A stretch of 42,978 bases of DNA from a virus. The first letter of the stretch is position 1. Every line of letters starts with the position of its first letter. The notes below the pieces were generated by a model. It saw only the letters and a program-made list of their open reading frames with translations. It was not told where the DNA came from and did no database searches. Positions 20,391 to 39,175 of this stretch are shown piece after piece. The stretch spans positions 1 through 42,978 of the IMG/VR virus record IMGVR_UViG_3300027710_000046. One strand, given 5' to 3'. The position numbers were made by a program, and so were the translations under genes.

Positions 20391-20400
20391 ATAATAAATA
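20386..20400 (+). promoter_or_regulatory. Tandem late promoters before scaffold and capsid genes
   Basis: GATAAATA (20386-20393) and AATAAATA (20393-20400), each one base from TATAAATA, overlap the end of gp21. They sit 35-50 bases before the gp22 ATG, which has a TTAGGAGAAA ribosome site. Tandem boxes suit the high demand for scaffold and capsid. Confidence 0.6.
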
Positions 20401-20434
20401 ATTACATAGAACTAATCCAGTTAGGAGAAAAACG

Positions 20435-21352: not shown

Positions 21353-21375
21353 AATCTTTTTAAAAGGAAACTAAA

Positions 21376-22644: not shown

Positions 22645-22690
22645 TTCATAATGTTGGTTTCATAGAAACTGACGATAAGAAGCAGTGTTT

Positions 22691-22720
22691 AAGGGGAACA
22701 GAAATGTTCCCCTTTTTTAT
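22691..22720 (+). terminator. Strong intrinsic terminator after gp23
   Basis: AAGGGGAACA / TGTTCCCCTT form a perfect 10-bp stem with a GAAA tetraloop (22701-22704), followed by TTTTAT. It closes the head operon. Confidence 0.93.
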
Positions 22721-22724
22721 TTGT

Positions 22725-22732
22725 CCTAAATA
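22725..22732 (+). promoter_or_regulatory. Late promoter for the second tube-like gene
   Basis: CCTAAATA directly after the gp23 terminator and 20 bases before the next ATG. A single virion-type gene lies behind it, so it should be an independent late unit. Confidence 0.55.
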
Positions 22733-22751
22733 AAAGAAACGAGAACTGACT

Positions 22752-23288: not shown

Positions 23289-23293
23289 AATAC

Positions 23294-23322
23294 TTGCTTT
23301 AAATTGCAAGGTGTAGTATAAT
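23294..23322 (+). promoter_or_regulatory. Sigma70-type promoter for uvsY-uvsW
   Basis: TTGCTT, a 17-base spacer and a perfect TATAAT, ending 26 bases before the uvsY ATG. First of a family of look-alike promoters in this window. Confidence 0.85.
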
Positions 23323-23348
23323 GATAGTTATGTCCATGTGAGGAAATT

Positions 23349-23786
23349 ATGACTTTAAATGAATTGCAAGAAATGTGGGAAACTGATGCTGGGATAGATG
23401 ATAACTATCTTGGTGAAAGTTCTGTCGCCACTCCAAAACTCCACGCCAAATATATCAAACTGCTTGTCGGTGCAAAACTCAAGCACACTAAACTTCAATC
23501 AGATTATTTGCTACTGCGCAAAAACAAATTTCGTTTATATCGTGGCGAGTTATCTCGTGATGAATTAACAAATCTTGGTTGGGCTCAGTGGCAAGGTGTT
23601 AAGCCATTGAAGAATGAGATGGATGAATTTTTACAAGGTGACTCTGAGTTAGTCACTATTAAAGTAAAGATTGATTATCTTGAAACAATGATTTATTTTT
23701 TAGAATCCGTTCTAGGTCAAATCAAAGCCAGAGACTGGCAGATTAAAACTGCCGTGGAATGGAAACGATTCTTAGCTGGTATGTAA
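23349..23786 (+). CDS. uvsY: Recombination mediator UvsY
   Basis: A 145-residue, mostly helical protein, similar in size to T4 UvsY (137). Shared layout: MTLNELQEMWETDAGIDDNYLGESS at the start (T4: MRLEDLQEELKKDVFIDSTKL), a central basic LRKNKFRLYRGELSRDE segment, and the end LGQIKARDWQIKTAVEWKRFLAGM (T4: LDAIKSRGFAIKHIQDMRAFEAGK). UvsY loads the UvsX recombinase on ssDNA covered by gp32. It is directly coupled to uvsW through TAATG, as expected for a recombination operon. UvsX itself is not in this window. Confidence 0.92.
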   Translation: MTLNELQEMWETDAGIDDNYLGESSVATPKLHAKYIKLLVGAKLKHTKLQSDYLLLRKNKFRLYRGELSRDELTNLGWAQWQGVKPLKNEMDEFLQGDSELVTIKVKIDYLETMIYFLESVLGQIKARDWQIKTAVEWKRFLAGM

Positions 23787-25267: not shown

Positions 25268-25734
25268 TGGGCGATGAGCATTACGTTATTGTTAAGTTTA
25301 CTTCAGGTGAACAAGTTATGGCTGTCTTGTTAGAAGAAACTATTGAGGATTTAACTATTGTATATCCAATGCAAATTCGTTTGACTCCTATTCTAGATGC
25401 TGATGGTGCAAGAGAACACGTTACAGCAACTCCTTGGAATAAATTTGCAGATGATCCACAAGTGACAATTAATAAAAGAAATGTTCTCTTTATTAAAAAT
25501 CTCCACCACGTACTGATCCCGCATTATACACGTTTAGTTTCTGAGAATGAAGAAACGCAATTAGTGAATAAAAAAGAAAACAGAGCAGAAGATCTTTCTT
25601 GGGGAGATGAAGAGACACAGGAAGAAGTCGATGCATTAAGCAATGAAGAACTTCTAAAGAGAATAAGAATGCTAGAATCTATTGCGGAGAAGGAAGAAAC
25701 AGTATTCGTTGAAGGAAACGATACAATTCACTAA
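25261..25734 (+). CDS. Putative Sm-like (LSm-fold) small protein
   Basis: A 157-residue protein overlapping the uvsW end. Residues 1-75 read as a five-stranded barrel: HYVIVKFTSGEQVMAVLLEET, LTIVYPMQIRLTPI, VTATPWNKFADDPQVTINKRNVLFIKNLHHVLIPHYTR. The opening hydrophobic-x-FxxGE-x-hhA pattern recalls Sm1 motifs and is shared with the gene at 41935. The remaining half is acidic and helical (SWGDEETQEEVDALSNEELLKRIRMLE). Related proteins occur beside uvsW/gp55 in marine T4-like phages. RNA binding is a guess from fold pattern. Confidence 0.6.
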   Translation: MLMGDEHYVIVKFTSGEQVMAVLLEETIEDLTIVYPMQIRLTPILDADGAREHVTATPWNKFADDPQVTINKRNVLFIKNLHHVLIPHYTRLVSENEETQLVNKKENRAEDLSWGDEETQEEVDALSNEELLKRIRMLESIAEKEETVFVEGNDTIH

Positions 25735-25759
25735 CAGTTCCGATCAACCCTAACACAGT

Positions 25760-25792
25760 GAGTTTACCTGTTTTCAAAATAAAAGTAAACTC
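25760..25792. repeat. Inverted repeat upstream of gp55
   Basis: GAGTTTAC (25760-25767) and GTAAACTC (25785-25792) flank an A/T-rich 17-base centre that can extend the pairing (TTTT with AAAA). GGTAAACT appears again at 25846-25853, overlapping the -10 of the gp55 promoter. It could be an operator or a weak RNA hairpin; there is no T tract after it. Confidence 0.5.
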
Positions 25793-25824
25793 TAATTATA
25801 TTGCAGCAATGCAAAAACTTTTAC

Positions 25825-25853
25825 TTGCCTTTAACTCACTATCAAGGTAAACT
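25825..25853 (+). promoter_or_regulatory. Promoter for gp55
   Basis: TTGCCT, 17-base spacer, TAAACT. The -35 and the following TTAA match the other early promoters here, but the -10 matches TATAAT at only four of six positions, so it may need an activator or be weak. TAAACT also recurs at 34646. Confidence 0.6.
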
Positions 25854-25889
25854 TATATTTGTAGCTGGTTCAACCAGATAGGATATATT

Positions 25890-26450
25890 GTGGCAAATTA
25901 CATTAACAACGCTGACTTTTTAGCAGCAATTAAATTATACAAACAGTCTGTATTAGATGCAGAAGCAGCTGGGTTACCGAAACCACAGATTCCACGATAT
26001 TTGGGAGAGTGTATTTTAAAGATTGCAACGCATCTTTCTTATAAACCTAACTTTATCAATTATACCTACAAAGATGATATGATTCTTGATGGTATTGAAA
26101 ACTGCATTAATTACTTTGACAACTTTGATCCCAATAAGTCCAGCAATCCGTTTGCGTACTTTACACAAATTATATTTTATGCTTTCTTGCGAAGAATCTC
26201 CAAAGAAAAGAAACACTCTTACATCAAGAACAAACTAATTCAAGATATGCCGTTTGATGCATTTGAATTACAACAACAAGATGAAGACGGACACTTTCAT
26301 AATGCGTATATTGATTTTATGCAAAGCAACAATAACTTTGATAACTCGTTTATCGAAAAGAAAAAAGTAAAGAGTAAAAAACAAAAGTCCAATCTAGATG
26401 ATTTTATAGGTGATAGTGATGCACAAATCGATTCGGGATCTGATACGTAA
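25890..26450 (+). CDS. gp55: Late-transcription sigma factor gp55
   Basis: A 186-residue protein, one residue different in length from T4 gp55 (185). It contains the sigma region 2-like core: YTYKDDMILDGIENCINYFDNFDPNKSSNPFAYFTQIIFYAFLRRISKEKKHSYIKNKL, where FNPFAYFTQI-type and FLRRI segments contact core polymerase and the -10 box. The acidic, Gln/Asp-rich C-terminus (NLDDFIGDSDAQIDSGSDT) suits the clamp-binding tail. The start is a GTG with a modest AGGA site. It directs host RNA polymerase to the TATAAATA-like boxes seen across this window, with gp45 as activator. Confidence 0.95.
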   Translation: MANYINNADFLAAIKLYKQSVLDAEAAGLPKPQIPRYLGECILKIATHLSYKPNFINYTYKDDMILDGIENCINYFDNFDPNKSSNPFAYFTQIIFYAFLRRISKEKKHSYIKNKLIQDMPFDAFELQQQDEDGHFHNAYIDFMQSNNNFDNSFIEKKKVKSKKQKSNLDDFIGDSDAQIDSGSDT

Positions 26451-27600
26451 TTTAGGTGATAATGGTGTTGATTTTCAGCCAGCAATAGCAAGATCGACAA
26501 GTAGAGCCAGAAAAAGAGCACGTGTTCGCAATGGTAAGTTACTACGTAAGTTTACTTGGGACGCAACAGATGATCAGTTTAATTTGAAAGAAATTATGAA
26601 TAACAGTGATAACAAAATTTTCTTAGGTGTTTCAGATGTTGAAGACCTAGTTACAGCAGAGATTGTAAAGCGTCGCATTGAAGATGGACATACAACTGTT
26701 CAACGTGAGACCACTGTTCTTTGTAATCGTGAACGCTGGGCAACTTGGGCAGAAGCCCATTATAAAACTATGCTTTATGTTCAAAGCAATTCTTCTTCTG
26801 GCTTTATCATTGAAGAAGAAACTGAAAACTTTATCAAGTTTGATGTAAACTCCAACTCAACTACTGTGCGTGCATACGGAGATGCTGTATTTGCAGAATG
26901 CATCGTTGCTGAAGTTGAAGCTACCTTTGATGTTGTTACATCTTATATTGAGTGGATTTATGGTAGTGATGGTAACTCTGTCAACGTGCCACTAAATCGT
27001 GATCGTATGCCTGTTGAAGAAATGTATCCATTCCTTAAAGGCGAATCCCTTGGTGATTACTACGATCGCTACATGGAATCTTCTGCCAACATTCTCCTAC
27101 TAATTGGACCTCCAGGAACTGGTAAAACTACATTCATTCGTGGTTTACTTGCACACCGTAACGCATCTGCAATCGTAACATACGATGCACAGATTCTTGA
27201 GAAAGATGGTTTCTTTGCTCGCTTTATCGAAGATGATACTCAAGTTATGGTGCTTGAAGATTCTGATGCATTCTTGAAATCTCGTAGCGACGGTAACACA
27301 ATGATGCATCGTTTCCTAAACGTAGGTGATGGTCTTGTGACAACTAAAGGTAAGAAAATGATTTTCTCTACTAACCTTCCATCTATCCGTGACATTGATT
27401 CTGCATTGATTCGTCCAGGACGTTGCTTTGACATCGTCACATTCGATGCACTAAATTATGCTGATGCCAAGAAACTTGGTGATAAACTCGGTGTTCCTGT
27501 TGATGCTGGAGCTTCTTCTTATTCTATTGCTGAAGTGTTCAACAAACAATCAGAGTTCAGCCAAAAGACACAATCAAATAGAAAGGTAGGTTTCATTTGA
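26419..27600 (+). CDS. BCS1-like AAA ATPase
   Basis: A 393-residue protein. The ATG at 26419 is preferred to in-frame GTGs at 26410 and 26416 because AGGTGA lies five bases before it; it overlaps gp55 by 32 bases. The first 200 residues are beta-rich and unassigned. The C-terminal AAA domain has Walker A GPPGTGKTT (about 230-238), Walker B VMVLEDSD (276-283), sensor 1 FSTN and a second-region RPGRCFD motif. The RPGR end is typical of BCS1/Vps4-type AAA proteins. Neighbours gp55 and gp47 suggest a DNA-metabolism or virion-related remodelling role. It has no T4 counterpart. Confidence 0.8.
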   Translation: MHKSIRDLIRNLGDNGVDFQPAIARSTSRARKRARVRNGKLLRKFTWDATDDQFNLKEIMNNSDNKIFLGVSDVEDLVTAEIVKRRIEDGHTTVQRETTVLCNRERWATWAEAHYKTMLYVQSNSSSGFIIEEETENFIKFDVNSNSTTVRAYGDAVFAECIVAEVEATFDVVTSYIEWIYGSDGNSVNVPLNRDRMPVEEMYPFLKGESLGDYYDRYMESSANILLLIGPPGTGKTTFIRGLLAHRNASAIVTYDAQILEKDGFFARFIEDDTQVMVLEDSDAFLKSRSDGNTMMHRFLNVGDGLVTTKGKKMIFSTNLPSIRDIDSALIRPGRCFDIVTFDALNYADAKKLGDKLGVPVDAGASSYSIAEVFNKQSEFSQKTQSNRKVGFI

Positions 27601-28652
27601 AGGTAGCCATTATTACTGACCAACACTTTGGTGCTAGGAATGACAGCATCGCATTCTTAGACTTCTATGAGAAATTCTATGAAAATACTTTCTTTCCTGC
27701 TCTTGATTCTGCTGGCATTACTACCGTACTTGTTCTTGGCGACACATTTGATAGACGCAAGTATGTAAATTTCTATGCACTTGACAGAGCCAAAAAAATG
27801 TTCTTTAATGAATTAGAAGAACGTGGTATACAAGTACATATGCTGGCAGGTAATCATGACACGTATTTTAAAAATACCAATGACGTGAATTCACCTGACT
27901 TATTGCTGCGTGAGTATAGCAACATTAATGTAATTGATCACCCAACTACAATTAATGTAGATGGTACAGACATCTGTATGATGCCTTGGATTTGTCCTGA
28001 GAATTATCAATCATCTCTTGACGAAATGAAAACAACAAAAGCTGAAATCTGTATGGGTCACTTTGAGATCGCAGGTTTTGCAATGTATAGAGGAATGGAG
28101 TCACATGAAGGACTTTCTAAAGAAGTGTTTGATAAGTTTGATCTTGTCTTTTCTGGTCATTATCATCATAGAAGTGATGATAAGCACATCTACTATCTCG
28201 GGAATCCGTACGAACTTACTTGGCAAGACTATAACGATCCCAGAGGGTTTCACTTGTTCGACACAACTACAAGAGGACTCGAGTTCATTTGCAATCCTTA
28301 TACAATGTTCGCAAGAATCGAGTACGACGATAAGGAAAGCGAGCCCATCGAGATCGATGCCGTTGATTTAAAAGAAAAGTACGTTAAACTAATTGTAACA
28401 AATAAAACTGACTTTTATAAATTTGACCGATTTATACAAAAGCTGTATAATAAAGGTTGCCATGAAATTAAGATATTGGAAGATATGTCTGAGTTTGAAG
28501 ATGGCGAAGTTGGTGAAGAAATTAACTTAGAAGATACAGTTAGTGTTCTCTCGCATTATATTGATAGTATTCAAACTGATGTTGACAAAGAACAAATTAA
28601 GAATTATATGAGAACACTTTATACGGAAGCCGTGAACCAAGAGGTAGTATAA
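27597..28652 (+). CDS. gp47: Recombination endonuclease subunit gp47 (Mre11/SbcD family)
   Basis: A 351-residue metallophosphoesterase starting at TTG, with AAAGGTAGG upstream and its first bases overlapping the previous TGA. Motifs: DQH (residues 8-10), GDTFDRRK, GNHDTYFKN, MGHFEIAGF and SGHYHH, which together hold the two metal ions. T4 gp47 has 339 residues and the same motif order. With gp46 it resects DNA ends to make the 3' tails used by UvsX/UvsY. Its stop overlaps the next start (TAATG). Confidence 0.96.
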   Translation: MKVAIITDQHFGARNDSIAFLDFYEKFYENTFFPALDSAGITTVLVLGDTFDRRKYVNFYALDRAKKMFFNELEERGIQVHMLAGNHDTYFKNTNDVNSPDLLLREYSNINVIDHPTTINVDGTDICMMPWICPENYQSSLDEMKTTKAEICMGHFEIAGFAMYRGMESHEGLSKEVFDKFDLVFSGHYHHRSDDKHIYYLGNPYELTWQDYNDPRGFHLFDTTTRGLEFICNPYTMFARIEYDDKESEPIEIDAVDLKEKYVKLIVTNKTDFYKFDRFIQKLYNKGCHEIKILEDMSEFEDGEVGEEINLEDTVSVLSHYIDSIQTDVDKEQIKNYMRTLYTEAVNQEVV

Positions 28653-28963
28653 TGCAACAACTTAACATAGAGTATTTCTTTCCACTTACGGAACAGATTC
28701 CACTTGACTTAGATTTTACGCTAACTGAAAAGTATATTTTAGATAAGCGAAATGAGCAGTTAAATAATTGTGTTACCTTGTCTGCAGGGCAGGCATTGTG
28801 GGCATTTAATGGTGGAACAGTTACTATGGGCAACAATTTGGGTAATCCATCGTTTACTATCAACGTGGATCAAACACCAATTACTATTGTATCTAAAAAG
28901 AAACCCAACTTTATAAAGCAGTTCATTTATAAGTCTTTGGGTATGAAATGGAAAAGTGAATGA
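28652..28963 (+). CDS. Unknown small protein between gp47 and gp46
   Basis: A 103-residue protein, coupled on both sides (TAATG to gp47, ATGA to gp46). Residues 1-50 are mixed (FFPLTEQIPLDLDFTLTEKYILDKRNEQLNN), followed by a small Gly/Asn-rich beta part (GGTVTMGNNLGNPSFTINV) and a basic end (KKKPNFIKQFIYKSLGMKWK). I recognise no family. T4 has tiny genes at the same place (46.1, 46.2), but no similarity can be claimed. Tight coupling suggests production together with the resection nuclease. Confidence 0.65.
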   Translation: MQQLNIEYFFPLTEQIPLDLDFTLTEKYILDKRNEQLNNCVTLSAGQALWAFNGGTVTMGNNLGNPSFTINVDQTPITIVSKKKPNFIKQFIYKSLGMKWKSE

Positions 28964-30672
28964 TTGTATTTAAAAGTGTAGAGTGGTCTAACTTTTTATC
29001 GACTGGTAATTCTCCAAATAAAGTTTTACTTGATAAAGCACCAACAACTCTTATCATTGGTAAGAATGGTGAAGGTAAAAGCACAATCTTGGATGCATTG
29101 TGCTTTTCATTGTTTGGTAAACCATTCCGTAACATCAATAAGAATCAGTTGATCAATAGCATCAATGGTAAAAAGTGTTTGGTTACTGTTGAGTTTTCTA
29201 TTAGTGGTCATGACTACAAAGTAGTGCGTGGAATCAAACCAAACTTGTTTGAGATCTATCAAGATGACGAATTACTTAATCAAGATGCGGCATCTCGTGA
29301 CTACCAAAAGATTCTTGAGCAACAAATCTTAAAATTAAATTACAAGACATTTACTCAAGTAGTTATTCTTGGTTCAGCATCGTTTGTTCCATTTATGCAG
29401 TTACCATCAAACCAACGAAGAGAAGTTATTGAAGATATTCTTGATATCCGTATTTTCTCAACAATGAACCAACTGTTGAAAGCCAAGGCACTGGAGACTA
29501 AAGATGCAATTACAAGAATCGAAAATGAGATATCAAATGCAAAGACAAAGGTTGAATCTCAAACGCAACTTATTAAAACCATTAACGAAGCCAAAACGCA
29601 AAGCATTAACGCAATCCAATCAAAAATTACTGCTAACCTGTCTGAGATTTCTAAGACAGAGGGCGAGATCAGTGGCATCGTGGCGGAGATCGAAAGTCTT
29701 AAAGTCAGCATCGCAAATAAGGAAAAGGTATCTGAAGACATCGACAAAGCCAAAACTATCAAGTCCAAGTTACTCCAGAAAATCGAAACTTGTGAGCACA
29801 ACACAGAGTTTTTTAGCGAACACGATGTATGTCCAAGCTGTAACCAAGATATCGCAGAGGAATACAAAGAGAGTATTGTCAAAGATCTTAATGAGAAAAT
29901 GTTGGATAACAACAACAAGATTAATGAACTCGAAACCATACTCACTAATCTCAATGCGAATCTATCGAAAATTAACGAAGTGGTTGGGCAAATTACCGAT
30001 AAGAACATTGAGTTATCTACAAGGAACTCTACTATCACCTTACTCAATAAACAAGTCAAAGAACTTGAAGCTGAGACCAAAAGGGTTGAATCTGACACAA
30101 CTAACATCGATGAAGAGAAGAGCAAGTTAAAGGAACTTGCCACTGATGCTATCTGTAAACTCAATACGAAAACTTCTCTGCAAGAGCATCGTAATCTAGA
30201 AGAAGTTGCATCAATCTTGTTAAAAGATACTGGTATTAAAACAGCCATTATCCGTGAGTACTTGCCCATTATGAACAAGTTGATCAACAAGTACCTTGCT
30301 GCAATGGATGCTTATATCCACTTTGAATTGGATGAAGCATTCAATGAGATTGTTAAATCTCGTTATCGTGATGAGTTTACTTATGCAAGTTTTAGTGAAG
30401 GTGAAAAGATGCGCATTGACTTGGCTATTCTTTTTACTTGGCGTCAAATTGCAAAGATGAAAAACTCTGTGAACACAAACTTGCTTATCTTGGATGAGAT
30501 CTTTGACTCATCTCTTGATACAGCTGGCACGGATTACTTCTTAAATTTGATGAATCAACTTGGTGACAAGAGCAACATTTTTGTGATTTCACACAAAGGT
30601 GATCAGCTGTTTGATAAGTTTAGATCCGTGATTCGGTTTGAAAAACGTAGTGATTTCTCTGTTATCGTATAA
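28960..30672 (+). CDS. gp46: Recombination endonuclease subunit gp46 (Rad50/SbcC family)
   Basis: A 570-residue SMC-like ATPase, near T4 gp46 (560). N-terminal Walker A GKNGEGKST (about 34-42). Long coiled coils run through residues 170-400 around a zinc hook CPSC in DVCPSCNQD. The C-terminal half has the signature FSEGEKMRIDLAILF, Walker B LLILDEIFDSSLD and the ISHK switch histidine. It partners gp47 in end resection. Overlaps the preceding gene by four bases (ATGA). A terminator overlaps its last bases. Confidence 0.96.
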   Translation: MIVFKSVEWSNFLSTGNSPNKVLLDKAPTTLIIGKNGEGKSTILDALCFSLFGKPFRNINKNQLINSINGKKCLVTVEFSISGHDYKVVRGIKPNLFEIYQDDELLNQDAASRDYQKILEQQILKLNYKTFTQVVILGSASFVPFMQLPSNQRREVIEDILDIRIFSTMNQLLKAKALETKDAITRIENEISNAKTKVESQTQLIKTINEAKTQSINAIQSKITANLSEISKTEGEISGIVAEIESLKVSIANKEKVSEDIDKAKTIKSKLLQKIETCEHNTEFFSEHDVCPSCNQDIAEEYKESIVKDLNEKMLDNNNKINELETILTNLNANLSKINEVVGQITDKNIELSTRNSTITLLNKQVKELEAETKRVESDTTNIDEEKSKLKELATDAICKLNTKTSLQEHRNLEEVASILLKDTGIKTAIIREYLPIMNKLINKYLAAMDAYIHFELDEAFNEIVKSRYRDEFTYASFSEGEKMRIDLAILFTWRQIAKMKNSVNTNLLILDEIFDSSLDTAGTDYFLNLMNQLGDKSNIFVISHKGDQLFDKFRSVIRFEKRSDFSVIV

Positions 30673-30697
30673 CCCTCAGTTCTTGAGGGTTATTTTT
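30671..30697 (+). terminator. Intrinsic terminator after gp46
   Basis: AACCCTCA / TGAGGGTT form a perfect 8-bp stem with a 5-base loop, followed by ATTTTT. It begins inside the gp46 stop codon and ends the recombination operon. Confidence 0.9.
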
Positions 30698-30728
30698 CCC
30701 CTTTAAAATCAACAACTTACGCAGTCGC

Positions 30729-30757
30729 TTTACTTTAATTCAGATCTAAGGCATAAT
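30729..30757 (+). promoter_or_regulatory. Early promoter for the metalloprotease-VWA unit
   Basis: TTTACT, 17-base spacer, CATAAT. Promoter and leader (30726-30778) are almost identical to those at 33197-33249 (about 49 of 53 bases). Confidence 0.75.
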
Positions 30758-30782
30758 TCTACTATTGAATGGAGATTATACT

Positions 30783-30947
30783 ATGGAAATGTGGAAAGAC
30801 TTTAGCGACTTTGAAATTGCATCTCTTGCTGGAAGTTATGGCTTGGAAGACTTAATTGTTTTCAATAGCGATCTAACTCTTGCAAACCGCACACAGCTTG
30901 AAACTTTGATTGCGGAATTTGAAATTGACATGGCATTTGGAGAATAA
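30783..30947 (+). CDS. Small unknown acidic protein
   Basis: A 54-residue acidic protein. The ATG at 30783 is chosen over an upstream in-frame ATG because GGAGA (30771-30775) then lies eight bases away. The sequence is helical (DFSDFEIASLAGSYGLEDLIVFN, RTQLETLIAEFEIDMAFGE) with no family I recognise. It is the first gene after an early promoter and ends one base before the metalloprotease-VWA gene, so the two are co-translated. It might regulate or accompany that protein. Confidence 0.6.
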   Translation: MEMWKDFSDFEIASLAGSYGLEDLIVFNSDLTLANRTQLETLIAEFEIDMAFGE

Positions 30948-30948
30948 T

Positions 30949-33138
30949 ATGAACTCTAAAATAAATGCAGTTGACTTAACAGCAAAACTTCTTGCCACAG
31001 AAAACCTAAGCGTACGTCGTGCTCGATCACGTACTGCATCTTTTGATATTAAATCTCGGGTGCTAACTCTTCCAATGTGGAAAGACATGACACCAGAAGT
31101 TGAGGGTATGTTGGTTGGTCACGAAGTTGGTCATGCTCTATGGACTGGCGATGAGTACATGAAACCGATCCAAGAAAACCCAAAGATGCATTCTTACTTG
31201 AATGTGTTGGAAGACGTACGTATTGAGAAATTGCTCAAACGTAAATATCCAGGTATTCGTAAGACCATGAATGAGGGTTACAAACAACTCAACGAAAAGG
31301 ACTTCTTTGGTGTTGGTAAAACTGATCTGACTTTAATCAATCTTATTGACAGAATTAACCTTTATTACAAAGCAGGTTTTACTTGTGGTGTTCAGTTTAC
31401 ACCTGAAGAAAAGTCATTCGTAGTTCGTGCTGAAAAGACAGAAACTATTGATGAGGTAGTTACCCTTGCCAAAGAAATTTATGAATACTCTCTGGAGCAA
31501 GCAAAAAAGAATGCTGGTCAACGTATGCTCGAAGAACAACAAGAGCGAGAAGAAGACGATGAGGAATCGGGTGAGTATGATGACCTAGATGAAATTGATG
31601 AAGACTTCGATAACATCGATGATTCAGATATGGACAAGACAGGTGAAACTCAAGACGAAGATGCTTTTGAGGGTGAAGAAAAGAAACAATCTTCTTTGGG
31701 CAAAACCAAAACTGAAGAAGAAAAGAAACAAGAAATTGTTGACAAAGAAATGGAATCCGTGACGGATAAAACTCTGGAAGAGAAACTTGCTGAATTGGCA
31801 GATGAATCAACTGAGTTCCACTACCATCAGCTGGACAGCGATTATGTCGTTGACCACGTTATTGGTTACAAAAAGATTTTGTCTGATGTTGCCGAGTCGT
31901 TTGTAAATATGGAACACAATGTTAAATCTATTGATGACTTTAAACCAGAATCTTCACGTATCGTGAATTATCTCATCAAAGAATTTGAGATGAAAAAGTC
32001 TGCAACAATGTATAAACGTGCTCAGACTTCAAAGATGGGTTCTTTGGATATGAAGAAAGTTTGGTCTTACAAGTTGAATAGCGATTTGTTCAAACGTGTA
32101 ACTACTTTCCCGCAAGGTAAAAATCACGGTATGATTTTCTTGCTTGACTGGTCAGGTTCGATGGATATGATGTTGGATGACACTATCAAACAAGTTGTTA
32201 CCTTGGCAATGTTCTGTCAACGTGCTCAGATCCCGTATCAGGTATTTGCCTTTAGTAGTCAATACGACATCTTTACTCAGCACACTGATGCATATAGTAA
32301 AATGCGTGCCAAGCAGACTGCTATCTACGCAACTGAAGATACTAAGATTCTGAATAATGCTGTGAACAACTTTGCTTTACTTGAGTTGTTTAGCAACAAG
32401 ATGAGTAATGTTGAGTTCAACACAATGTGTAAGTATGTGATGGATCGTTACTTCCGCTACGCCAGAAATGGTGAATACAATACTGGTGGTACTCCACTAA
32501 ATGAAGCATTGGCATATATGGTTGATTATATTCCAAAATTCATCAAAGCCCACAACGTTGAGAAAATGTCATTCATTACTCTGACGGATGGTGAGGGTGC
32601 AGCTTTGTATCCTGTGTATCGTCAATCTCTCGATTCAGTACGCAATGAACGTGTCCTTGACGAAAAGACTGGTGAGTACAGATACAATCGTATTCAGATG
32701 AAACACTTCTTACAAGATCCTATGACTAAAAAGTCTTATGAATTGCCTAAGCATGGTAGTGGTCAAAGCGAAGTATTGTTGCGTATGATTAAAGATCGTT
32801 ACAATGTTAATAGCGTTGGATTTTATATCGTGCCAAATACACGTCGTTACTTGTGTCAAGCAGTTCGTGCAAACTTGCCTGGATTTGCTGGTTCTGAATA
32901 TAACCTTGTTGACGTATGGCGTAAAGAGTTCCGTGACAATGGATTTGCATCTGTTAAAAACACTGGACGTGATGACTTGTTTATTATCCCTCAGAATAAA
33001 CTTGCTGTTGAAAATGAACAACTTGAAATTCTTGCAAACCAAACGGCAAAGCAAATTTCAAATAAGTTCAGTAAAATGATGTCCTCCAAGAAGACTAGCC
33101 GAGTGCTGCTCAACAAGTTTATTGGTTACGTTGCGTAA
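30949..33138 (+). CDS. Metalloprotease-VWA protein, CobT-like
   Basis: A 729-residue protein; the ATG at 30949 follows GGAGAATAAT. Near the N-terminus is HEVGH (58-62), a zinc metalloprotease HExxH signature, with a downstream acidic stretch LNVLEDVRIEKLL that may supply the third ligand. Residues 200-275 are a very acidic linker. From about 395 comes a VWA domain with a complete MIDAS: DWSGSM (D400, S402, S404), TGGTPLNEAL near 512 and TLTDGEG near 545. CobT-type VWA proteins pair with MoxR/CobS ATPases, and such an ATPase lies two genes downstream. Probable role: ATPase-driven remodelling or proteolysis of a host or phage complex. Confidence 0.8.
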   Translation: MNSKINAVDLTAKLLATENLSVRRARSRTASFDIKSRVLTLPMWKDMTPEVEGMLVGHEVGHALWTGDEYMKPIQENPKMHSYLNVLEDVRIEKLLKRKYPGIRKTMNEGYKQLNEKDFFGVGKTDLTLINLIDRINLYYKAGFTCGVQFTPEEKSFVVRAEKTETIDEVVTLAKEIYEYSLEQAKKNAGQRMLEEQQEREEDDEESGEYDDLDEIDEDFDNIDDSDMDKTGETQDEDAFEGEEKKQSSLGKTKTEEEKKQEIVDKEMESVTDKTLEEKLAELADESTEFHYHQLDSDYVVDHVIGYKKILSDVAESFVNMEHNVKSIDDFKPESSRIVNYLIKEFEMKKSATMYKRAQTSKMGSLDMKKVWSYKLNSDLFKRVTTFPQGKNHGMIFLLDWSGSMDMMLDDTIKQVVTLAMFCQRAQIPYQVFAFSSQYDIFTQHTDAYSKMRAKQTAIYATEDTKILNNAVNNFALLELFSNKMSNVEFNTMCKYVMDRYFRYARNGEYNTGGTPLNEALAYMVDYIPKFIKAHNVEKMSFITLTDGEGAALYPVYRQSLDSVRNERVLDEKTGEYRYNRIQMKHFLQDPMTKKSYELPKHGSGQSEVLLRMIKDRYNVNSVGFYIVPNTRRYLCQAVRANLPGFAGSEYNLVDVWRKEFRDNGFASVKNTGRDDLFIIPQNKLAVENEQLEILANQTAKQISNKFSKMMSSKKTSRVLLNKFIGYVA

Positions 33139-33150
33139 GTCATTGATTTA

Positions 33151-33177
33151 TAAGGGGAAAATAATCCCCTTATTTTT
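33151..33177 (+). terminator. Terminator after the VWA gene
   Basis: TAAGGGGA / TCCCCTTA form an 8-bp stem with a 6-base loop, followed by TTTTTGG. The surrounding block 33137-33169 recurs at 42298-42329. Confidence 0.88.
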
Positions 33178-33199
33178 GGTAGGGAATGCAAGAAATCGC

Positions 33200-33228
33200 T
33201 TTACTTAAATTCAGATATCAGGCATAAT
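33200..33228 (+). promoter_or_regulatory. Early promoter for the CobS-like unit
   Basis: TTTACT, 17-base spacer, CATAAT; near-duplicate of the promoter at 30729. It follows the terminator at 33151-33177 directly. Confidence 0.75.
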
Positions 33229-33252
33229 TATACTATTGAATGGAGATTAATT

Positions 33253-33450
33253 ATGAATGAATTTACTACGTTTTCTGCTGGTGTTGCTGACGCTACTCTT
33301 GACTTGTTGGCTGGTCCTGTGTTCGCTGGTGGTCCTACTGAAAAACCTGAATTGGCGTCGCTTGACTTTATCGTGAATGAATTTCGTTTACGTTTAGGTT
33401 GTTCTGATGCTTATCTTGCTGGTTATTTGTCTGTGCTGTTCTCTGAATGA
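33253..33450 (+). CDS. Small unknown protein
   Basis: A 65-residue protein with a GGAGA site eight bases before the ATG. Residues 1-30 are small and hydrophobic (TTFSAGVADATLDLLAGPVFAGGP) and the rest is a helix pair (LDFIVNEFRLRLGCSDAYLAGYLSVLFSE). No family recognised. Its promoter and leader nearly duplicate those of the 54-residue gene before the VWA protein, so each member of the VWA/CobS pair is led by a small gene with the same control region. Confidence 0.6.
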   Translation: MNEFTTFSAGVADATLDLLAGPVFAGGPTEKPELASLDFIVNEFRLRLGCSDAYLAGYLSVLFSE

Positions 33451-33484
33451 TGTTGAGTTTTAATTTTATTATGAAAGTGAGTGA

Positions 33485-34621
33485 ATGATGTCAAACGAAC
33501 AAACTGTTTTTGAAACCAAAATGTATGAGATGTTTCCCGATATTCAAACCAAAGGTACTGTTGAAAATTCTCAGCTACTTGCAGTAATGAAAGAATTGGG
33601 TACTAAGAAATCACCACGTTGGTTGATGGTGGATAAAGTTGGTCGTGGTCTTTACGCAATTCCAGGTGGAAAGATTGTTGGTAATACTGCTTTGAAAGAA
33701 GAGCCTGTTATGGAATCGTTTAATGTCGACTACTCCAATATTGAGTCTTTGATCCCCAAGAAAGATGCAAACTTTGTACCATTTGGTAACTATACTGATC
33801 TAGAGAATATTATCAAGTCAGGTATCTTTTATCCTTCTTACATCTCAGGTCCAACTGGGAATGGTAAGTCAACGATGGTCGAGCAGATTTGTGCCAAACA
33901 TAAAAAGCCACTCATTCGTGTAAACTTAAACATGATGACTGACGAAGAGCAATTGATTGGTTCCAAGACCCTAGAGAATGGTAATGTGGAGATTGTAGAG
34001 GGTCCAGTTCTTATTGCAATGCGCAATGGTACTACTATGTTGCTTGACGAGATTGATGCTGGTTCAGCAAATACTCTGTTGTGCTTGCAACCAATTCTTG
34101 AGGGTAAGCCATACTACTTTAAACTCAAGAATGAGATGATTGTTCCTGCCAAGGGATTCAACATCATCGCCACTGCAAATACAAAGGGTAAAGGTTCAGA
34201 CGATGGTCGTTACATTGGTACCAACGTATTGAACGAAGCATTCTTGGAGCGATTCGCTGTTACATTTGAACAGGAATATCCAGCTGCAAAAGTTGAGATC
34301 AAGATTATCAAGAATCTTATGGAATCATATGGATGTGTTGATGAAGAATTTGCCGATACATTAGTTAAATGGGCAGAGTCTATCCGTCGCACGTTTGATG
34401 ATGGTGGAGTAGACGAAACTATTACAACTCGTCGTATGACACATATTGTTCGTGCCTTTGCAATCTTTAAGAATCGTAGCAAAGCAGTTGAACTTTGTTG
34501 CAATCGTTTTGACTCTGCAACAAAACTTGCATTTATTGACTTGTACGATAAGGTATCAAACCCTGTTCCTGAAGTCGTTGCTCCAGTAATGCAAGAAACA
34601 TCTAGTGAAGTGCCGTTTTAA
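33485..34621 (+). CDS. CobS/MoxR-type AAA ATPase
   Basis: A 378-residue AAA+ ATPase of the type labelled CobS in cyanophages. Walker A GPTGNGKST (122-130), Walker B MLLDEID (185-191), sensor region NIIATANTKGKGSDDGRYIGTNVLNEAFLERF, where the ERF arginine is the likely finger. The first 60 residues form a small separate domain (SRSQLLAVMKELGTKKSPRWL-type). Real CobS needs CobN and CobT to insert cobalt; no CobN is here, but a VWA partner is. A chaperone role with the neighbouring VWA protein is more likely than vitamin B12 synthesis. Start could equally be the second ATG at 33488. Confidence 0.88.
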   Translation: MMSNEQTVFETKMYEMFPDIQTKGTVENSQLLAVMKELGTKKSPRWLMVDKVGRGLYAIPGGKIVGNTALKEEPVMESFNVDYSNIESLIPKKDANFVPFGNYTDLENIIKSGIFYPSYISGPTGNGKSTMVEQICAKHKKPLIRVNLNMMTDEEQLIGSKTLENGNVEIVEGPVLIAMRNGTTMLLDEIDAGSANTLLCLQPILEGKPYYFKLKNEMIVPAKGFNIIATANTKGKGSDDGRYIGTNVLNEAFLERFAVTFEQEYPAAKVEIKIIKNLMESYGCVDEEFADTLVKWAESIRRTFDDGGVDETITTRRMTHIVRAFAIFKNRSKAVELCCNRFDSATKLAFIDLYDKVSNPVPEVVAPVMQETSSEVPF

Positions 34622-34622
34622 C

Positions 34623-34651
34623 TTTACTTTAATTATGAATCGTAGTAAACT
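34623..34651 (+). promoter_or_regulatory. Candidate early promoter
   Basis: TTTACT, 17-base spacer, TAAACT: the same -35 family as the other early promoters, with the same weaker -10 seen before gp55. Confidence 0.5.
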
Positions 34652-34689
34652 AATGGTTGTGAATTAAATACTTGAAAAGGAAATATATT

Positions 34690-35091
34690 ATGTTGAAATT
34701 TAATGATCTGTCTAAGTCTCAGAAGAAATGTATCATTGCTTTGATTGAAGCTAACCCTGCCCTGAAAACCACAGGAAAGATTAGTTTGAAAGAAGTTGTA
34801 GCTATTACCCAAGATCTTGCTGCCAAACGTACTGCTGGTGCACCAAAGATTGGTTACCCAAATTGGTTGTTTAAGCACAACAAGATTGAGCGTGGTATGT
34901 ATGAACTTCCACTTCCAACTGAGCAAGATCTTTCTGATTATGCGCAAGGTTCCGTAAAGCAACCTAAGGTGTCTAAATCTAAAGCTGCTGCTGCAACTCG
35001 CCTAGAGAAAATCATTGAGTCATCCCCTGTTCATACTCAGGATGTTGAAGACTTCAATGCGATCTTACGTGAGAATGGTATCACAGTATAA
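34690..35091 (+). CDS. Unknown protein with basic middle region
   Basis: A 133-residue protein. The ATG at 34690 is chosen for the AAAAGGAAA site eight bases upstream; a longer in-frame start lies inside the leader. The N-terminal half is helical (LSKSQKKCIIALIEANPALKTTGKISLKEVVAITQDLAAKR), then GAPKIGYPNWLFKHNKIERGMYELPLP, which resembles a small winged-helix-like domain also seen at the start of the CobS-like ATPase (PRWLMVDKVGRGLYAIP). A linker and a short helix follow. The 21-base leader recurs before the last gene of the window. DNA or protein binding is possible; function unknown. Confidence 0.65.
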   Translation: MLKFNDLSKSQKKCIIALIEANPALKTTGKISLKEVVAITQDLAAKRTAGAPKIGYPNWLFKHNKIERGMYELPLPTEQDLSDYAQGSVKQPKVSKSKAAAATRLEKIIESSPVHTQDVEDFNAILRENGITV

Positions 35092-35105
35092 TTTAATTTT
35101 GTAGT

Positions 35106-35144
35106 ATCGGGTTGGGGACTGCCATCTCCCAACTCGATTTTTTT
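35106..35144 (+). terminator. Terminator before the winged-helix gene
   Basis: ATCGGGTTGGGG pairs with TCCCAACTCGAT (two G-U pairs) around a short loop, followed by seven T's. A strong intrinsic terminator 30 bases before the next start. Confidence 0.85.
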
Positions 35145-35174
35145 CGATGGCGTTTTTTAACATGGAGATATTAT

Positions 35175-35444
35175 ATGTCTAAGCAAGCAAAGTTGTTGTC
35201 TCATCTGCAAGCTGGTAATGAGTTGACTGCAAAACAGATCAAAGGTTCTTTCGGTATTGCTCATCCTGCGTCAGCAGTTCGTAACTTGCGTGAAAAGGGT
35301 TACTGTGTTTATTCAAACGCAGCTAAACTTGCAGACGGTACACCTACTGTAAAGTATCGTATCGGCATGCCAAGCAAGCGTATGGTTGCTATTGTAAATG
35401 CAGTTGTTGGCGCATCTGCCTTCACAGCACAGCGTACACGCTAA
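35175..35444 (+). CDS. Winged helix-turn-helix protein
   Basis: An 89-residue protein; the ATG at 35175 follows ATGGAGATATTAT, and the longer frame upstream runs through the terminator hairpin. The sequence LLSHLQAGNELTAKQIKGSFGIAHPASAVRNLREKGYCVYSN is a compact winged helix resembling HTH_39-type domains (LTAKQ first helix, SAVRNLREKGY recognition helix, YRIG wing). Such small proteins are frequent in marine T4-like phages. It is probably a DNA-binding regulator; targets are unknown. No promoter of the early family is visible before it, so it may be expressed by read-through. Confidence 0.75.
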   Translation: MSKQAKLLSHLQAGNELTAKQIKGSFGIAHPASAVRNLREKGYCVYSNAAKLADGTPTVKYRIGMPSKRMVAIVNAVVGASAFTAQRTR

Positions 35445-35445
35445 G

Positions 35446-35489
35446 CAGTAAGTGTATGGGCATTCTCTGAGTGCCTATACGCATTACTG
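35446..35489 (+). promoter_or_regulatory. Large leader hairpin before the diphosphohydrolase gene
   Basis: A 17-base arm (35446-35462) pairs with an 18-base arm (35472-35489) with one bulged base and two G-U pairs, around a 9-base loop. No T tract follows; instead the GGAG ribosome site and the ATG come 2-12 bases later. This looks like a translational or RNA-stability element rather than a terminator. Confidence 0.7.
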
Positions 35490-35500
35490 TTGGAGAAAAT

Positions 35501-35842
35501 ATGGCAACTAAAGAAGATATTAAAAAGTCGCAGAATGCCACTACTGGTGGACGTAAGTTTGATGGTAACAAAATTCAATATGGATTGTTACCTCCACTTG
35601 CACTAAAAGCTACTGCAGAAATTCTAACATTTGGGGCGGAGAAATACGAACCAGATAATTGGAAGTTTGTTCCTGACTCAAAACGTAGATACTTTGACGC
35701 AATGCAAAGACATCTCTGGGCATGGAAAGAGGGTGAGCAAAACGATCCCGAGACTGGTAAGAATCACCTAGCACACGCAATGTGTTGTCTAATGTTTCTT
35801 TATGAGCATGATGTAAAGTATTCAAAGGATTCAAATGTTTAA
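35501..35842 (+). CDS. dATP/dGTP diphosphohydrolase-like protein
   Basis: A 113-residue protein; ATG after TTGGAGAAAAT. The core GLLPPLALKATAEILTFGAEKYEPDNW (28-54) and GKNHLAHAMCCLMFLYEHD (86-104) match the N-terminal all-helical domain of phage dATP/dGTP diphosphohydrolases, a MazG-type fold whose E/H/D residues hold the metal. In other phages such enzymes trim purine deoxynucleotide pools, in some cases for use of 2-aminoadenine. No PurZ or DpoZ is in this window, so pool balancing is the safer reading. Its end overlaps the next small gene by eight bases. Confidence 0.78.
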   Translation: MATKEDIKKSQNATTGGRKFDGNKIQYGLLPPLALKATAEILTFGAEKYEPDNWKFVPDSKRRYFDAMQRHLWAWKEGEQNDPETGKNHLAHAMCCLMFLYEHDVKYSKDSNV

Positions 35843-36011
35843 AATGTTAATTACATTTATATTTCTTTTCGTTATATTCTATACGGGAATTGAAATCTTC
35901 CGTAAGTTTAGTGGCAAAGAGAAATGGGAAGTTGCAAAGACTACCATTTATAGCGTGACGATCGCTCTTCTCGTTATTGTGTTTCTTACTATTGTCGTTG
36001 TTTTATTTTAA
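35835..36011 (+). CDS. Two-helix membrane peptide
   Basis: A 58-residue protein; ATG with AAAGGAT nine bases upstream, overlapping the end of the preceding gene. It has two transmembrane helices, MLITFIFLFVIFYTGIEIF (about 4-22) and YSVTIALLVIVFLTIVVVLF (about 39-58), joined by a charged loop RKFSGKEKWEVAKTT. It ends nine bases before the SPFH lipoprotein gene, suggesting shared translation and perhaps a membrane complex with it. A holin is another possibility, but its early-region location argues against lysis. Confidence 0.7.
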   Translation: MFKMLITFIFLFVIFYTGIEIFRKFSGKEKWEVAKTTIYSVTIALLVIVFLTIVVVLF

Positions 36012-36020
36012 GGATTGATT

Positions 36021-36815
36021 ATGAAAAAAGTTTTTACCATCGGTGTTTTAGCTGCAGCAATTCTTGCTACAGGTTGTACTCGTATTGAGACTGGCGAGGT
36101 AGGTGTTCGTGTTGGTTTTGACAAGCAAGTTCAGCAAGGTGAGTTGCTTCCAGGTTCTTTCAATCAAGTGCTAATTGGTGATGTTCTTACATTCCCCATC
36201 AAAGACGTTAATGTTAAACTTGATGATATGACTCCAGTTGCTCGAGATAACTCAACTATGAAAGACTTTGACGCAGTAGTTATCTACAACATCAATCAAG
36301 CACAAGTCGCTGAACTGTATAGCCAAAAGAGTCAAGCATTTCATGCTCGTCACAATGGCGATATCTACTTGATGTATAACTACATCGTTCAAGCTACACG
36401 AAATGCTATCTACAAAGAAGCACGTAAGTATGAAGCGTTGGATATGGCAGACAATCGTACCTCAATGGAACAAGCAATCAAAGAACAGATTCAAAAATCT
36501 TTGGCTGACGAAAAACTGGACGGCAGTCTTGTTGTTGGACAGGTTCTTATTCGTAACATTGTACCAGCGGACTCAGTTGTTGCAAGTGCCAATGAATTGG
36601 TTCGTGCCAAGAATGAGTTGAAGCAGAAGGAAGTTGAAGTAAAGACTGCCAAGATGGAAGCTGAACGTATGCAAGCACTTTCCAATCAAGGTGCCCAAAG
36701 TATTGCTTATATGCAAGCTCAAGCAATGATCAATATCTCTGAAGGTATTAAACAAGGTAAGGTTCAAACTATTGTTGTTCCTGCCAACTTTAATGCACTG
36801 ATGATGCCAAAATAA
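36021..36815 (+). CDS. SPFH/prohibitin-family lipoprotein
   Basis: A 264-residue protein starting at ATG after AAGGATTGATT. Residues 1-19 are a lipoprotein signal ending in lipobox LATGC (lipidated Cys19). The SPFH/band 7 domain follows: RIETGEVGVRVGFDKQVQQGELLPGSFNQ, LDDMTPVARDNSTMKDFDAVVIYNIN, and LVVGQVLIRNIVPADSVVASANE. Then come a coiled coil (KNELKQKEVEVKTAKMEAERMQ) and a short end. SPFH proteins build ring cages in membranes; HflK/HflC of this family control the FtsH protease. A phage copy could alter host membrane proteolysis or block superinfection, which is inference. Confidence 0.88.
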   Translation: MKKVFTIGVLAAAILATGCTRIETGEVGVRVGFDKQVQQGELLPGSFNQVLIGDVLTFPIKDVNVKLDDMTPVARDNSTMKDFDAVVIYNINQAQVAELYSQKSQAFHARHNGDIYLMYNYIVQATRNAIYKEARKYEALDMADNRTSMEQAIKEQIQKSLADEKLDGSLVVGQVLIRNIVPADSVVASANELVRAKNELKQKEVEVKTAKMEAERMQALSNQGAQSIAYMQAQAMINISEGIKQGKVQTIVVPANFNALMMPK

Positions 36816-36817
36816 AT

Positions 36818-36846
36818 TTGACATATACCTCATTTTGGGGTATAAT
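36818..36846 (+). promoter_or_regulatory. Full-consensus sigma70 promoter for gp45
   Basis: TTGACA, exactly 17 bases, TATAAT, 35 bases before the clamp ATG. The best match to the sigma70 consensus in the window; strong immediate-early expression expected. Confidence 0.93.
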
Positions 36847-36881
36847 GTATTATACATAGTTAATATGAACAGGAGAAGTGA

Positions 36882-37541
36882 ATGAAATTATCTAAAGAAA
36901 CCGTAGCCGTTATTAAGAACTTTGCTGGTATCAACAGCAATCTTCTTTTGAAATCAGGCAGCAAAGTAGCAACAATCTCGTCACAAAAGAATGTGATGGC
37001 AGATACAACTGTAACTGAATCATTCCCAAGTGATTTTGGTATCTATGACCTCAACGAGTTCTTGGGTGCCATGTCTTTGTTTGAAGATCCAGAGTTGGAA
37101 TTCAGCGAAAAGTTTGTTACTATCAAACAAGGTGGTATGAGCATTAAGTATTATGCTGCTGCCGCAGATGTCTTGGTTGCCCCAACTAAGAGTATCACTT
37201 TCCCAGATGCAGAAATCAATTTTAATATCACAGCTTCCCAGCTTGATATGATTCGCAAGACTGCTGGTGTATTGCGTAGTGAAGACGTTTCTATTGTTGG
37301 TGATGGTAGCAAAATTGCTGCTGTTGTTGGTGACAAGAAAAACTCTACGTCAAACTCTTTCAATCAAGCAGTTGGTACAACTGACAAGACATTTAAAGTT
37401 AATCTAAAGGTAGAAAACCTAAAGATGATTCCAGGTGATTATGCAGTTAGCATTTCGTCAAAGAAAATCTCTCGCTTTAAAGGTTCTGGGGATTTAGTTT
37501 ATTACGTAGCTGTTGAGGCAGATTCTACATTCGAAGGATAA
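36882..37541 (+). CDS. gp45: Sliding clamp gp45
   Basis: A 219-residue clamp subunit (T4 gp45: 228). The N-terminus MKLSKETVAVIKNFAGINSNLLLKSG matches T4 MKLSKDTTALLKNFATINSGIMLKSG; IYDLNEFLGAMSLFEDPELEFSE and the C-terminus VYYVAVEADSTFEG also match. The trimeric ring tethers the DNA polymerase and, with gp55, activates late promoters. Strong AGGAGAAGTGA ribosome site. It heads the clamp, clamp-loader and RegA operon. Confidence 0.97.
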   Translation: MKLSKETVAVIKNFAGINSNLLLKSGSKVATISSQKNVMADTTVTESFPSDFGIYDLNEFLGAMSLFEDPELEFSEKFVTIKQGGMSIKYYAAAADVLVAPTKSITFPDAEINFNITASQLDMIRKTAGVLRSEDVSIVGDGSKIAAVVGDKKNSTSNSFNQAVGTTDKTFKVNLKVENLKMIPGDYAVSISSKKISRFKGSGDLVYYVAVEADSTFEG

Positions 37542-37550
37542 TTCCTTTTT

Positions 37551-38201
37551 ATGAAGCGTACAAATATATTCAGTTGCCCTATATGGGAATGGGATAATCT
37601 TCCAATAGATAATTCCAAACTTGAACAACATGTGTATACTTTAATGGAACGTGATCCAGAGTTTAGAAACCCTGAAGGATATAGTGGACTTATATTAAAG
37701 TGGAAGAGTTATAACCTAACATCAAAAGACTTTTTGGCTTTTCCTGAAACTGGTAAACTAATCGCTTTAATTAAAGAATTAGTAGTTCCTTGTATCGCTG
37801 AATTAAATCCACGGGATTCTGCTACTTTTGTTTTACAAGAAGTGTGGTTCAATGTTTACCCACCACTTGCTTCATTGGAAAGTCACCCACACGTAGGTAA
37901 TGTTTTGTCTGGAACATACTACATCAAAGCCAAACCAAACTGTGGTGACTTGGCATTTTTAACAGGTGATAATAGCACATACTATAACTTTGCTGCTAAG
38001 TACTTTCATAACAGAAATGACATAACTGCAATTAAACATCTAGTGAAACCTGTGGAAAATTCTATGATAGTTGCACCCTCGCATTTAATGCATGCTGTAA
38101 AAGAGAATCGCTCAGAAGAGGATAGAATTTCTCTTTCCTTTAATTTTAAAGTTGTTAGTGATAACACATACACACCAAACGACAAGTATTTTAAAATTTA
38201 A
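37551..38201 (+). CDS. 2-oxoglutarate/Fe(II)-dependent oxygenase
   Basis: A 216-residue protein of the type seen in marine phages (2OG-FeII_Oxy_5 pattern). It contains QEVWFNVYPPLASLESHPHVGNVLSGTYYIKAKPNCGDLAFLTGD, where H112/H114 are likely first metal ligands, and SMIVAPSHLMHAVKENRSEEDRISLSFNF with distal His H181 and 2OG-binding Arg R192. It sits between clamp and clamp loader, where T4 has no gene. The substrate is unknown: nucleic acid, protein or free base. The ribosome site is an AAGGA about 12 bases before the ATG, overlapping the gp45 stop. Confidence 0.85.
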   Translation: MKRTNIFSCPIWEWDNLPIDNSKLEQHVYTLMERDPEFRNPEGYSGLILKWKSYNLTSKDFLAFPETGKLIALIKELVVPCIAELNPRDSATFVLQEVWFNVYPPLASLESHPHVGNVLSGTYYIKAKPNCGDLAFLTGDNSTYYNFAAKYFHNRNDITAIKHLVKPVENSMIVAPSHLMHAVKENRSEEDRISLSFNFKVVSDNTYTPNDKYFKI

Positions 38202-38221
38202 CTATATTATGAAAGTTTATT

Positions 38222-39175
38222 ATGATTGAATCTCGTGACGAGTTGTTTCTGTGGGTTGAGAAGTATCGTCCACAAACTATTGATGAGTGTGTACTTCCAG
38301 AGTCATTGAAGAAAACTTTCAAGGACTACGTATCTAAAGGTCAACTACCTACATTCTTGTTATGTGGTACTGCTGGTGTTGGTAAAACTACCATTGCCAA
38401 AGCACTGTGTAATGAGGTAGGTGCTGATTACATTATGATTAACGGATCTGACGAAGGTCGTTCCATTGATACCCTGCGCACAACCATCAAGAACTTTGCT
38501 TCAACAGTATCTCTAACTGATGCTAAAAAGGTAGTTATCGTTGATGAAGCAGACTATATGAACAGTGACTCTGTTCAACCTGCTCTGCGCAACTTTATCG
38601 AACAGTTCTCTGGTAATTGTTCCTTTATCTTTACTTGTAATTTTAAGAATCGTATTATTGAGCCACTTCACTCTCGTTGTGCAGTGATTGAATTTAAGAT
38701 TGATAGTAAAGACAAGCAAGAGATTGCTGCTACTTTCTTTAAGCGAGCAACCACTATCCTCAAGCAAGAGGGTATTGAATTTGATCCCAAAGTTGTTTCT
38801 GAACTTATAATCAAACACTTTCCTGACTATCGTCGTATCTTAAATGAACTTCAACGATATTCTGTATCTGGTAAAATCGATACAGGCATCTTAGTTAATT
38901 TGGGTCAAGAATCCTTTAAACAATTAGTCAAGGATATGAAGGAAAAGGATTTCCCAGAAGTTCGTAAATGGGTATCAAAGAATTCTGAACTTGGAACTGC
39001 CCAAATCTTCCGTGAATTATATGACAACGCATCTGTTGTAATGCAAGATATTAGTATCCCGCAACTTGTATTAATCTTGGCTGAATATCAGTATAAGTCT
39101 GCTTTTGTGGCAGATCAAGAGATAAATATAATGGCAGCATTAACAGAAGTAATGTCTCAATGTAAATTTAAGTAA
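38222..39175 (+). CDS. gp44: Clamp loader large subunit gp44
   Basis: A 317-residue AAA+ ATPase (T4 gp44: 319). Walker A GTAGVGKTT (49-57), Walker B VVIVDEADYM (104-113), SRC motif (151-153) whose Arg acts on the neighbouring subunit, and sensor 2 near DYRRILNELQRYS. Four gp44 with one gp62 open and load gp45. The ATG has no good Shine-Dalgarno (only GAAAG), a configuration suited to RegA control. In T4, RegA represses gp44 at its initiation region. Confidence 0.97.
   Translation: MIESRDELFLWVEKYRPQTIDECVLPESLKKTFKDYVSKGQLPTFLLCGTAGVGKTTIAKALCNEVGADYIMINGSDEGRSIDTLRTTIKNFASTVSLTDAKKVVIVDEADYMNSDSVQPALRNFIEQFSGNCSFIFTCNFKNRIIEPLHSRCAVIEFKIDSKDKQEIAATFFKRATTILKQEGIEFDPKVVSELIIKHFPDYRRILNELQRYSVSGKIDTGILVNLGQESFKQLVKDMKEKDFPEVRKWVSKNSELGTAQIFRELYDNASVVMQDISIPQLVLILAEYQYKSAFVADQEINIMAALTEVMSQCKFK

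Follow-up and report, generated by a model that had tools for sequence, protein, structure and literature searches.

The DNA analysed here is a viral stretch of 42,978 nucleotides (nt), IMG/VR record IMGVR_UViG_3300027710_000046, which we call the window and on which all coordinates are based. Close together on its forward strand lie a gene for a protein with a VWA domain and a gene for a CobS-like AAA+ ATPase. The two form a conserved two-gene pair that is not new, being the "peptidase" and "cobS" of the cyanophage core. The pair and the parts of the VWA protein are as follows.

30949..33138, + strand: gene for the zincin-VWA protein (phrog_459 "peptidase"; CobT-like), 729 amino acids, ATG at 30949, PHROG E-value 8e-183, covered by alignment A1 and AlphaFold2 (AF2) models
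30949..31524, + strand: N-terminal minigluzincin-like domain (residues 1-192), predicted local distance difference test score (pLDDT) 89.5, predicted template modelling score (pTM) 0.85
31120..31134, + strand: HEVGH, predicted zinc/catalytic motif (residues 58-62)
31201..31227, + strand: NVLEDVRIE (residues 85-93), predicted glutamate helix with the third zinc ligand
32125..32598, + strand: VWA domain core with the MIDAS motifs D400xS402xS404, T515 and D547, invariant in A1
33485..34621, + strand: gene for the MoxR/CobS-type AAA+ ATPase (phrog_249), 378 amino acids

The VWA protein carries its HEVGH domain at the N terminus and, at the C terminus, a VWA domain with a full MIDAS, in which DWSGSM supplies D400, S402 and S404, GGTPL supplies T515 and TDGEG supplies D547. 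All four motifs are present as an earlier, sequence-only reading of this DNA had stated, and the CobS/MoxR ATPase with intact Walker motifs that it had described two genes further on is likewise present (GPTGNGKS, LLDEID), one small open reading frame (ORF) separating the two genes. Pfam finds VWA in the 729-residue protein only below threshold and AAA_5 in the ATPase (E 6e-18), which PHROG labels "porphyrin biosynthesis" (phrog_249, E 9e-104). The full-length AF2 model matches VWA domains in Foldseek, among them that of the NorQ-NorD complex and the MIDAS of Midasin. Four homologous loci (L046, L047, L049, L050) have DWSASM in place of DWSGSM as the first MIDAS motif. A search with a defence-system library returned nothing except a P-loop match of 13.5 bits.

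The two genes are tightly linked. We collected 81 homologue loci, the first being the window itself and the second an identical (100%) copy from an IMG/VR contig of 161,882 bp, and cobS stood downstream of the VWA gene, on the same strand and within 750 nt, in every one of the 70 loci with room for it; in the remaining 11 the sequence stops no more than 175 nt from the VWA gene. The claim that ATPase and VWA partner belong together is thus borne out, and the ATPase has the adjacent MIDAS-bearing VWA protein of MoxR-vWA systems. Cyanophage record totals are equal for both genes (365, 61 and 24, counted by organism name and not matched record by record). The cyanophage core pair belongs to the same families (phrog_459 and phrog_249) and lies in the same gene order, gp55-gp47-gp46-peptidase-cobS-gp45-gp44, but its identity to the window is about 31-35% for the VWA protein at full length and 48-58% for CobS. 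Routine occurrence of cobS without the VWA gene, which had been named as a refutation, is not what we find for T4-like cobS; distant CobS-like ATPases (about 26% identity) do exist in Staphylococcus and Listeria phages, and that of Staphylococcus phage Sb-1 has no recognisable HExGH-VWA neighbour beside it. The gene following the Sb-1 ATPase (L085, 6867-7712) is a DUF7192 gene, which by eye may be a degenerate VWA gene. That the T4-like VWA gene has a cellular source was also considered and set aside, the genome-contig search having given 17 loci, mostly on contigs of marine metagenome-assembled genomes that are likely phage.

The predicted zinc site is conserved. Among 51 N-domains with 40-82% identity to that of the window, H58, E59, H62, N85, E88, D89 and R91 are invariant, and G61 and E93 vary slightly. 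The model places HEVGH on a helix spanning residues 49-65 and NVLEDVRIE on one spanning 78-99, so that alignment and model agree on an HExxH motif carried by an active-site helix, as in zincins. A sequence search of the PDB with the N-domain gave no meaningful match. In Foldseek the 16 best PDB matches are all of zincin type, minigluzincins first, with probabilities up to 0.99, and they include selecase, jannalysin, abylysin, ArdC, BlaR1 and IrrE/PprI; the model thus has a zincin-like fold, though at E-values of 0.06 or worse. A third zinc ligand, whose lack the sequence-only reading had named as part of one refutation, would lie on the second helix: E88, D89 and E93 are the candidates, the helix motif N85-x-x-E88-D89 is invariant in all 51 sequences, and the ligand is probably E88.

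The ATPase is well preserved too. Besides Walker A (GPTGNGKS) and Walker B (LLDEID) it conserves N232, R256 and R316/R317, and among 76 close homologues G122, G125, G127, K128, D188, E189, N232, R256, R316 and R317 are invariant, which leaves the Walker motifs, sensor and arginine finger of a MoxR/AAA_5 ATPase intact. Its closest solved sequence is Midasin (1.5e-38), followed by cobaltochelatase CobS (1.6e-23).

The pair is flanked and preceded by further features, all on the forward strand.

30671..30697, + strand: terminator-like stem-loop with a T tail after the gp46-like gene (AACCCTCAgttctTGAGGGTTATTTTT, read directly)
30729..30758, + strand: sigma70-type promoter of the first unit, TTTACT-17-CATAAT, found as a 30-nt pattern match
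30783..30947, + strand: small ORF of 54 amino acids, companion of the VWA gene
33150..33173, + strand: terminator-like site after the VWA gene
33200..33229, + strand: second copy of the sigma70-type promoter, same 30-nt pattern
33253..33450, + strand: ORF of 65 amino acids between the VWA gene and cobS

Both units thus have a terminator-like site ahead, followed by a near-identical sigma70-type promoter. The two leader copies fit one 30-nt promoter pattern with no mismatch (0.00 expected from shuffles), and they remain alike past the Shine-Dalgarno sequence as far as the start codon. The pattern has eight matches at up to three mismatches, all forward, in the 161.9-kb sister contig, and its reversed control none. 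Each half had been described as led by a small gene with nearly the same promoter and leader; the likeness of promoter and leader stands, as does the tie of the first small ORF to the VWA gene, but the second small ORF shows no tie to cobS. Homologues of the 54-residue ORF occur in 50 of the 81 loci, at most 23 nt from the VWA start or overlapping it by one base, and the ORF is likely translationally coupled to the VWA gene. It belongs to no Pfam or PHROG family, has a family consensus of about MWxDFxDFELAxLxxxYG...LANRxxIExLLTExE...AFGE, and is missing from other loci, such as L035, where gp46 directly precedes the VWA gene; nor was it found with the cyanophage core pair. In one sublineage it would probably act as an accessory or as a regulator. 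Homologues of the 65-residue ORF, window copies included, are found in six loci only, in L004-L006 they precede the first small ORF, and the ORF is no constant member of the system. A perfect 12/12 sigma70-type promoter match also lies at 36818-36846, just before an ORF at 36882 that sits where the sliding clamp is expected.

The genes around the pair are those of DNA metabolism. In S-SSM5 and HTVC008M its neighbours are gp55-gp47-gp46 on one side and gp45-gp44-gp62 on the other, the order being gp55, gp47, gp46, peptidase, cobS, gp45, gp44, with extra genes between. Elsewhere the neighbours are DNA ligase with dnaE, dnaE, primase, or an ssb-bet-exonuclease cluster, so that across unrelated elements the pair adjoins replication, recombination or repair genes, a neighbourhood that fits an early role. 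Kindred pairs occur in phages and plasmids of E. coli, Salmonella, Klebsiella and Vibrio. On IncC conjugative plasmids (L144, 6809-7777 and 13006-14693; L136, 3932-5728) a CobS-like ATPase and a HEAAH-VWA protein lie around an ssb-bet-exonuclease cluster. The window also encodes, at 36015-36815, an SPFH/Band 7 protein (Pfam E 2e-17) whose N-terminus resembles that of a lipoprotein.

Taken together, we favour, at a probability of roughly 0.6, the view that the pair is a two-component, ATP-driven remodelling metalloprotease rather than an enzyme of vitamin B12 synthesis. To judge from its family and its conserved ATPase residues, the CobS-like protein would form a MoxR-type AAA+ ring. On this ring the VWA protein would dock, gripping its substrate through the MIDAS as family members do in NorQ-NorD, CobS-CobT and Midasin, and the minigluzincin-like N-domain, with its predicted fold and invariant HExxH and NxxED, would cut or trim the protein that the ATPase unfolds. 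Given its host-type promoters and its place in the replication/recombination module, such a machine would most likely do its work ahead of virion assembly. Its target may be a DNA-bound protein or one trapped in replication or recombination complexes, by analogy with the minigluzincin-like Wss1, which works with the AAA+ protein Cdc48 and recruits it through short motifs (PMC4559962); this is speculation that we hold only tentatively and would sooner expect to fail.

Several known systems resemble parts of this machine. The jumbo-phage pair described by Iyer et al. 2021 (PMC7824862) has the same architecture, a MoxR AAA+ gene adjoining one for a vWA protein whose N-terminal part is a metallopeptidase domain, but comes from group 2.2 jumbo phages, whereas here a T4-like phage of about 160 kb carries the pair in a replication-module context, and the two are likened by architecture only. 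The architecture is therefore already known; what we add is the invariant zinc site, the pseudo-site of CobT, the tests for CobN and ribonucleotide reductase (RNR), and the coupled small ORF. NorQ-NorD (9qhe) and Midasin/Rea1 likewise combine an AAA+ ATPase with a MIDAS-VWA partner or domain, although Midasin is one giant chain; to our knowledge neither has a protease domain. Selecase, jannalysin, abylysin and Wss1 share HExxH and the fold predicted here for the N-domain but lack a VWA domain.

Some observations weigh against a protease. The Foldseek matches to zincins of the PDB have weak E-values (0.06-0.84), and both proteolysis and zinc binding are predictions from sequence and model. In Pseudomonas phage nickie, Stenotrophomonas phage ANB28 and an Acinetobacter plasmid (L131, L132, L137) HExxH is lost and the pair kept; catalysis is therefore not required in every member. 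The timing, too, is drawn from promoter type and neighbourhood only, and early phage genes commonly cluster by replication genes. The papers on infection transcriptomes that we consulted give no timing for this gene pair.

The pair could instead serve virion assembly or maturation, as a chaperone and processing protease for structural proteins, the role proposed for jumbo phages (PMC7824862). The metallopeptidase-vWA-MoxR architecture agrees with this, and the tail assembly of an archaeal virus is reported to need a MoxR-vWA system (PMC7824862). The genes lie, however, in a replication/recombination module with host-type promoters, and relatives are found in IncC plasmids, which are conjugative and produce no virions. 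No ATAAATA late-type motif occurs within 20400-39122, which is weak evidence, since the motif count is below chance and the scan therefore says little. We consider a role in assembly unlikely.

Alternatively, the pair might be an ATP-driven remodeller whose zincin fold binds metal or substrate without cleavage. That several sister pairs and also cellular CobT have lost the zinc site, with the pair retained, speaks for this, but Glu59 and both histidines are invariant in the T4-like lineage, and mere binding would not need Glu59; we regard it as quite improbable there.

The relation to CobT bears on both this possibility and the vitamin B12 question. Cellular CobS-CobT (PDB 9uka, 9ujv) also joins an AAA+ ATPase to a VWA protein, and has CobN as its partner. 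The window VWA protein matches neither the N nor the C domain of CobT in Pfam. Phage protein RHph_N2_6 weakly matches the window N-domain (E 0.03), and the CobT N-domain family (PF06213) matches KPC53 (1.9e-22), CRP-810 (2e-15), an Acinetobacter plasmid protein (2.6e-10) and an IncC plasmid protein (5e-6). A direct profile comparison of the T4-like and cellular CobT N-domains gave a probability of 2.9%, against 88% for the VWA part. Because this direct match is weak, the homology rests on the bridging phage proteins (RHph_N2_6, KPC53, CRP-810) and on BFVD, where fold matches of the N-domain include phage CobT proteins. The zinc site is intact in SSU5, KPC53, RHph_N2_6, CRP-810 and the IncC protein, and variant in ICP2/JSF23. 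In 16 alphaproteobacterial CobTs aligned with KPC53, by contrast, a D-x-x-A-L-R-like stretch replaces the phage DHExGH, and the ED pair is lost in all or nearly all. CobT thus looks like a relative of the phage VWA protein with a dead protease site. Phage cobT has been said to be mistakenly called a peptidase (PMC8651126); since the cellular proteins lack HExxH and the phage proteins have it, that remark is, on sequence evidence, probably wrong for this lineage and has the matter backwards.

The same paper (PMC8651126) reads the pair as CobST cobaltochelatase subunits, which would join a host CobN to raise cobalamin, and databases likewise place it with vitamin B12 synthesis. The homology of the ATPase to CobS (TIGR01650, E 2e-22), that of the VWA protein to CobT by way of the bridging phage proteins (PF06213), and the presence of CobN in a cyanobacterial control genome are in its favour. 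The ATPase, however, scores 79.7 bits against an equivalog cut-off of 558, and T4-like CobS proteins group together without the cellular ones (clade support 0.996, in a midpoint-rooted tree of limited sample). CobN, or the Mg-chelatase H subunit, is absent from the window, as the sequence-only reading had it, and from seven phage genomes, with controls positive, although the host of the window may carry CobN. A class I RNR small subunit is encoded in six of the seven genomes (none was found in G006), and the B12-dependent NrdJ has no match above cut-off in any, which bears out the earlier view that a B12 reading of phage CobS is weak. An E. coli control genome has no CobN match, and related pairs nonetheless occur in E. 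coli phages. With the zinc site invariant in the phage proteins and missing from cellular CobT, a cobaltochelatase role is very unlikely.

In 58 alphaproteobacterial genomes (G001, G010-G066), some of which may be incomplete, the CobT N-domain was found in 41, CobN/Mg-chelatase H in 22, and CobT without CobN in 20; in the Caulobacter vibrioides control CobT is present and CobN was not detected. Since 20 of the 41 CobT-bearing genomes have no detectable CobN, the bacterial pair may often serve something other than cobalt insertion. It may be that pairs of the CobS-CobT type are in the first place minigluzincin proteases of mobile elements, driven by ATP and clearing or remodelling nucleoprotein in replication and recombination in a Wss1-Cdc48-like manner, with cellular CobT as a pseudoprotease branch, a generalisation that we regard as doubtful.

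Marine virus surveys count cobS as an auxiliary metabolic gene for vitamin B12 or nucleotide synthesis. If the pair is a remodelling protease, that ecological interpretation would not hold for a gene pair that is part of the core of very common marine phages, and the pair would offer a possible evolutionary origin for CobT.

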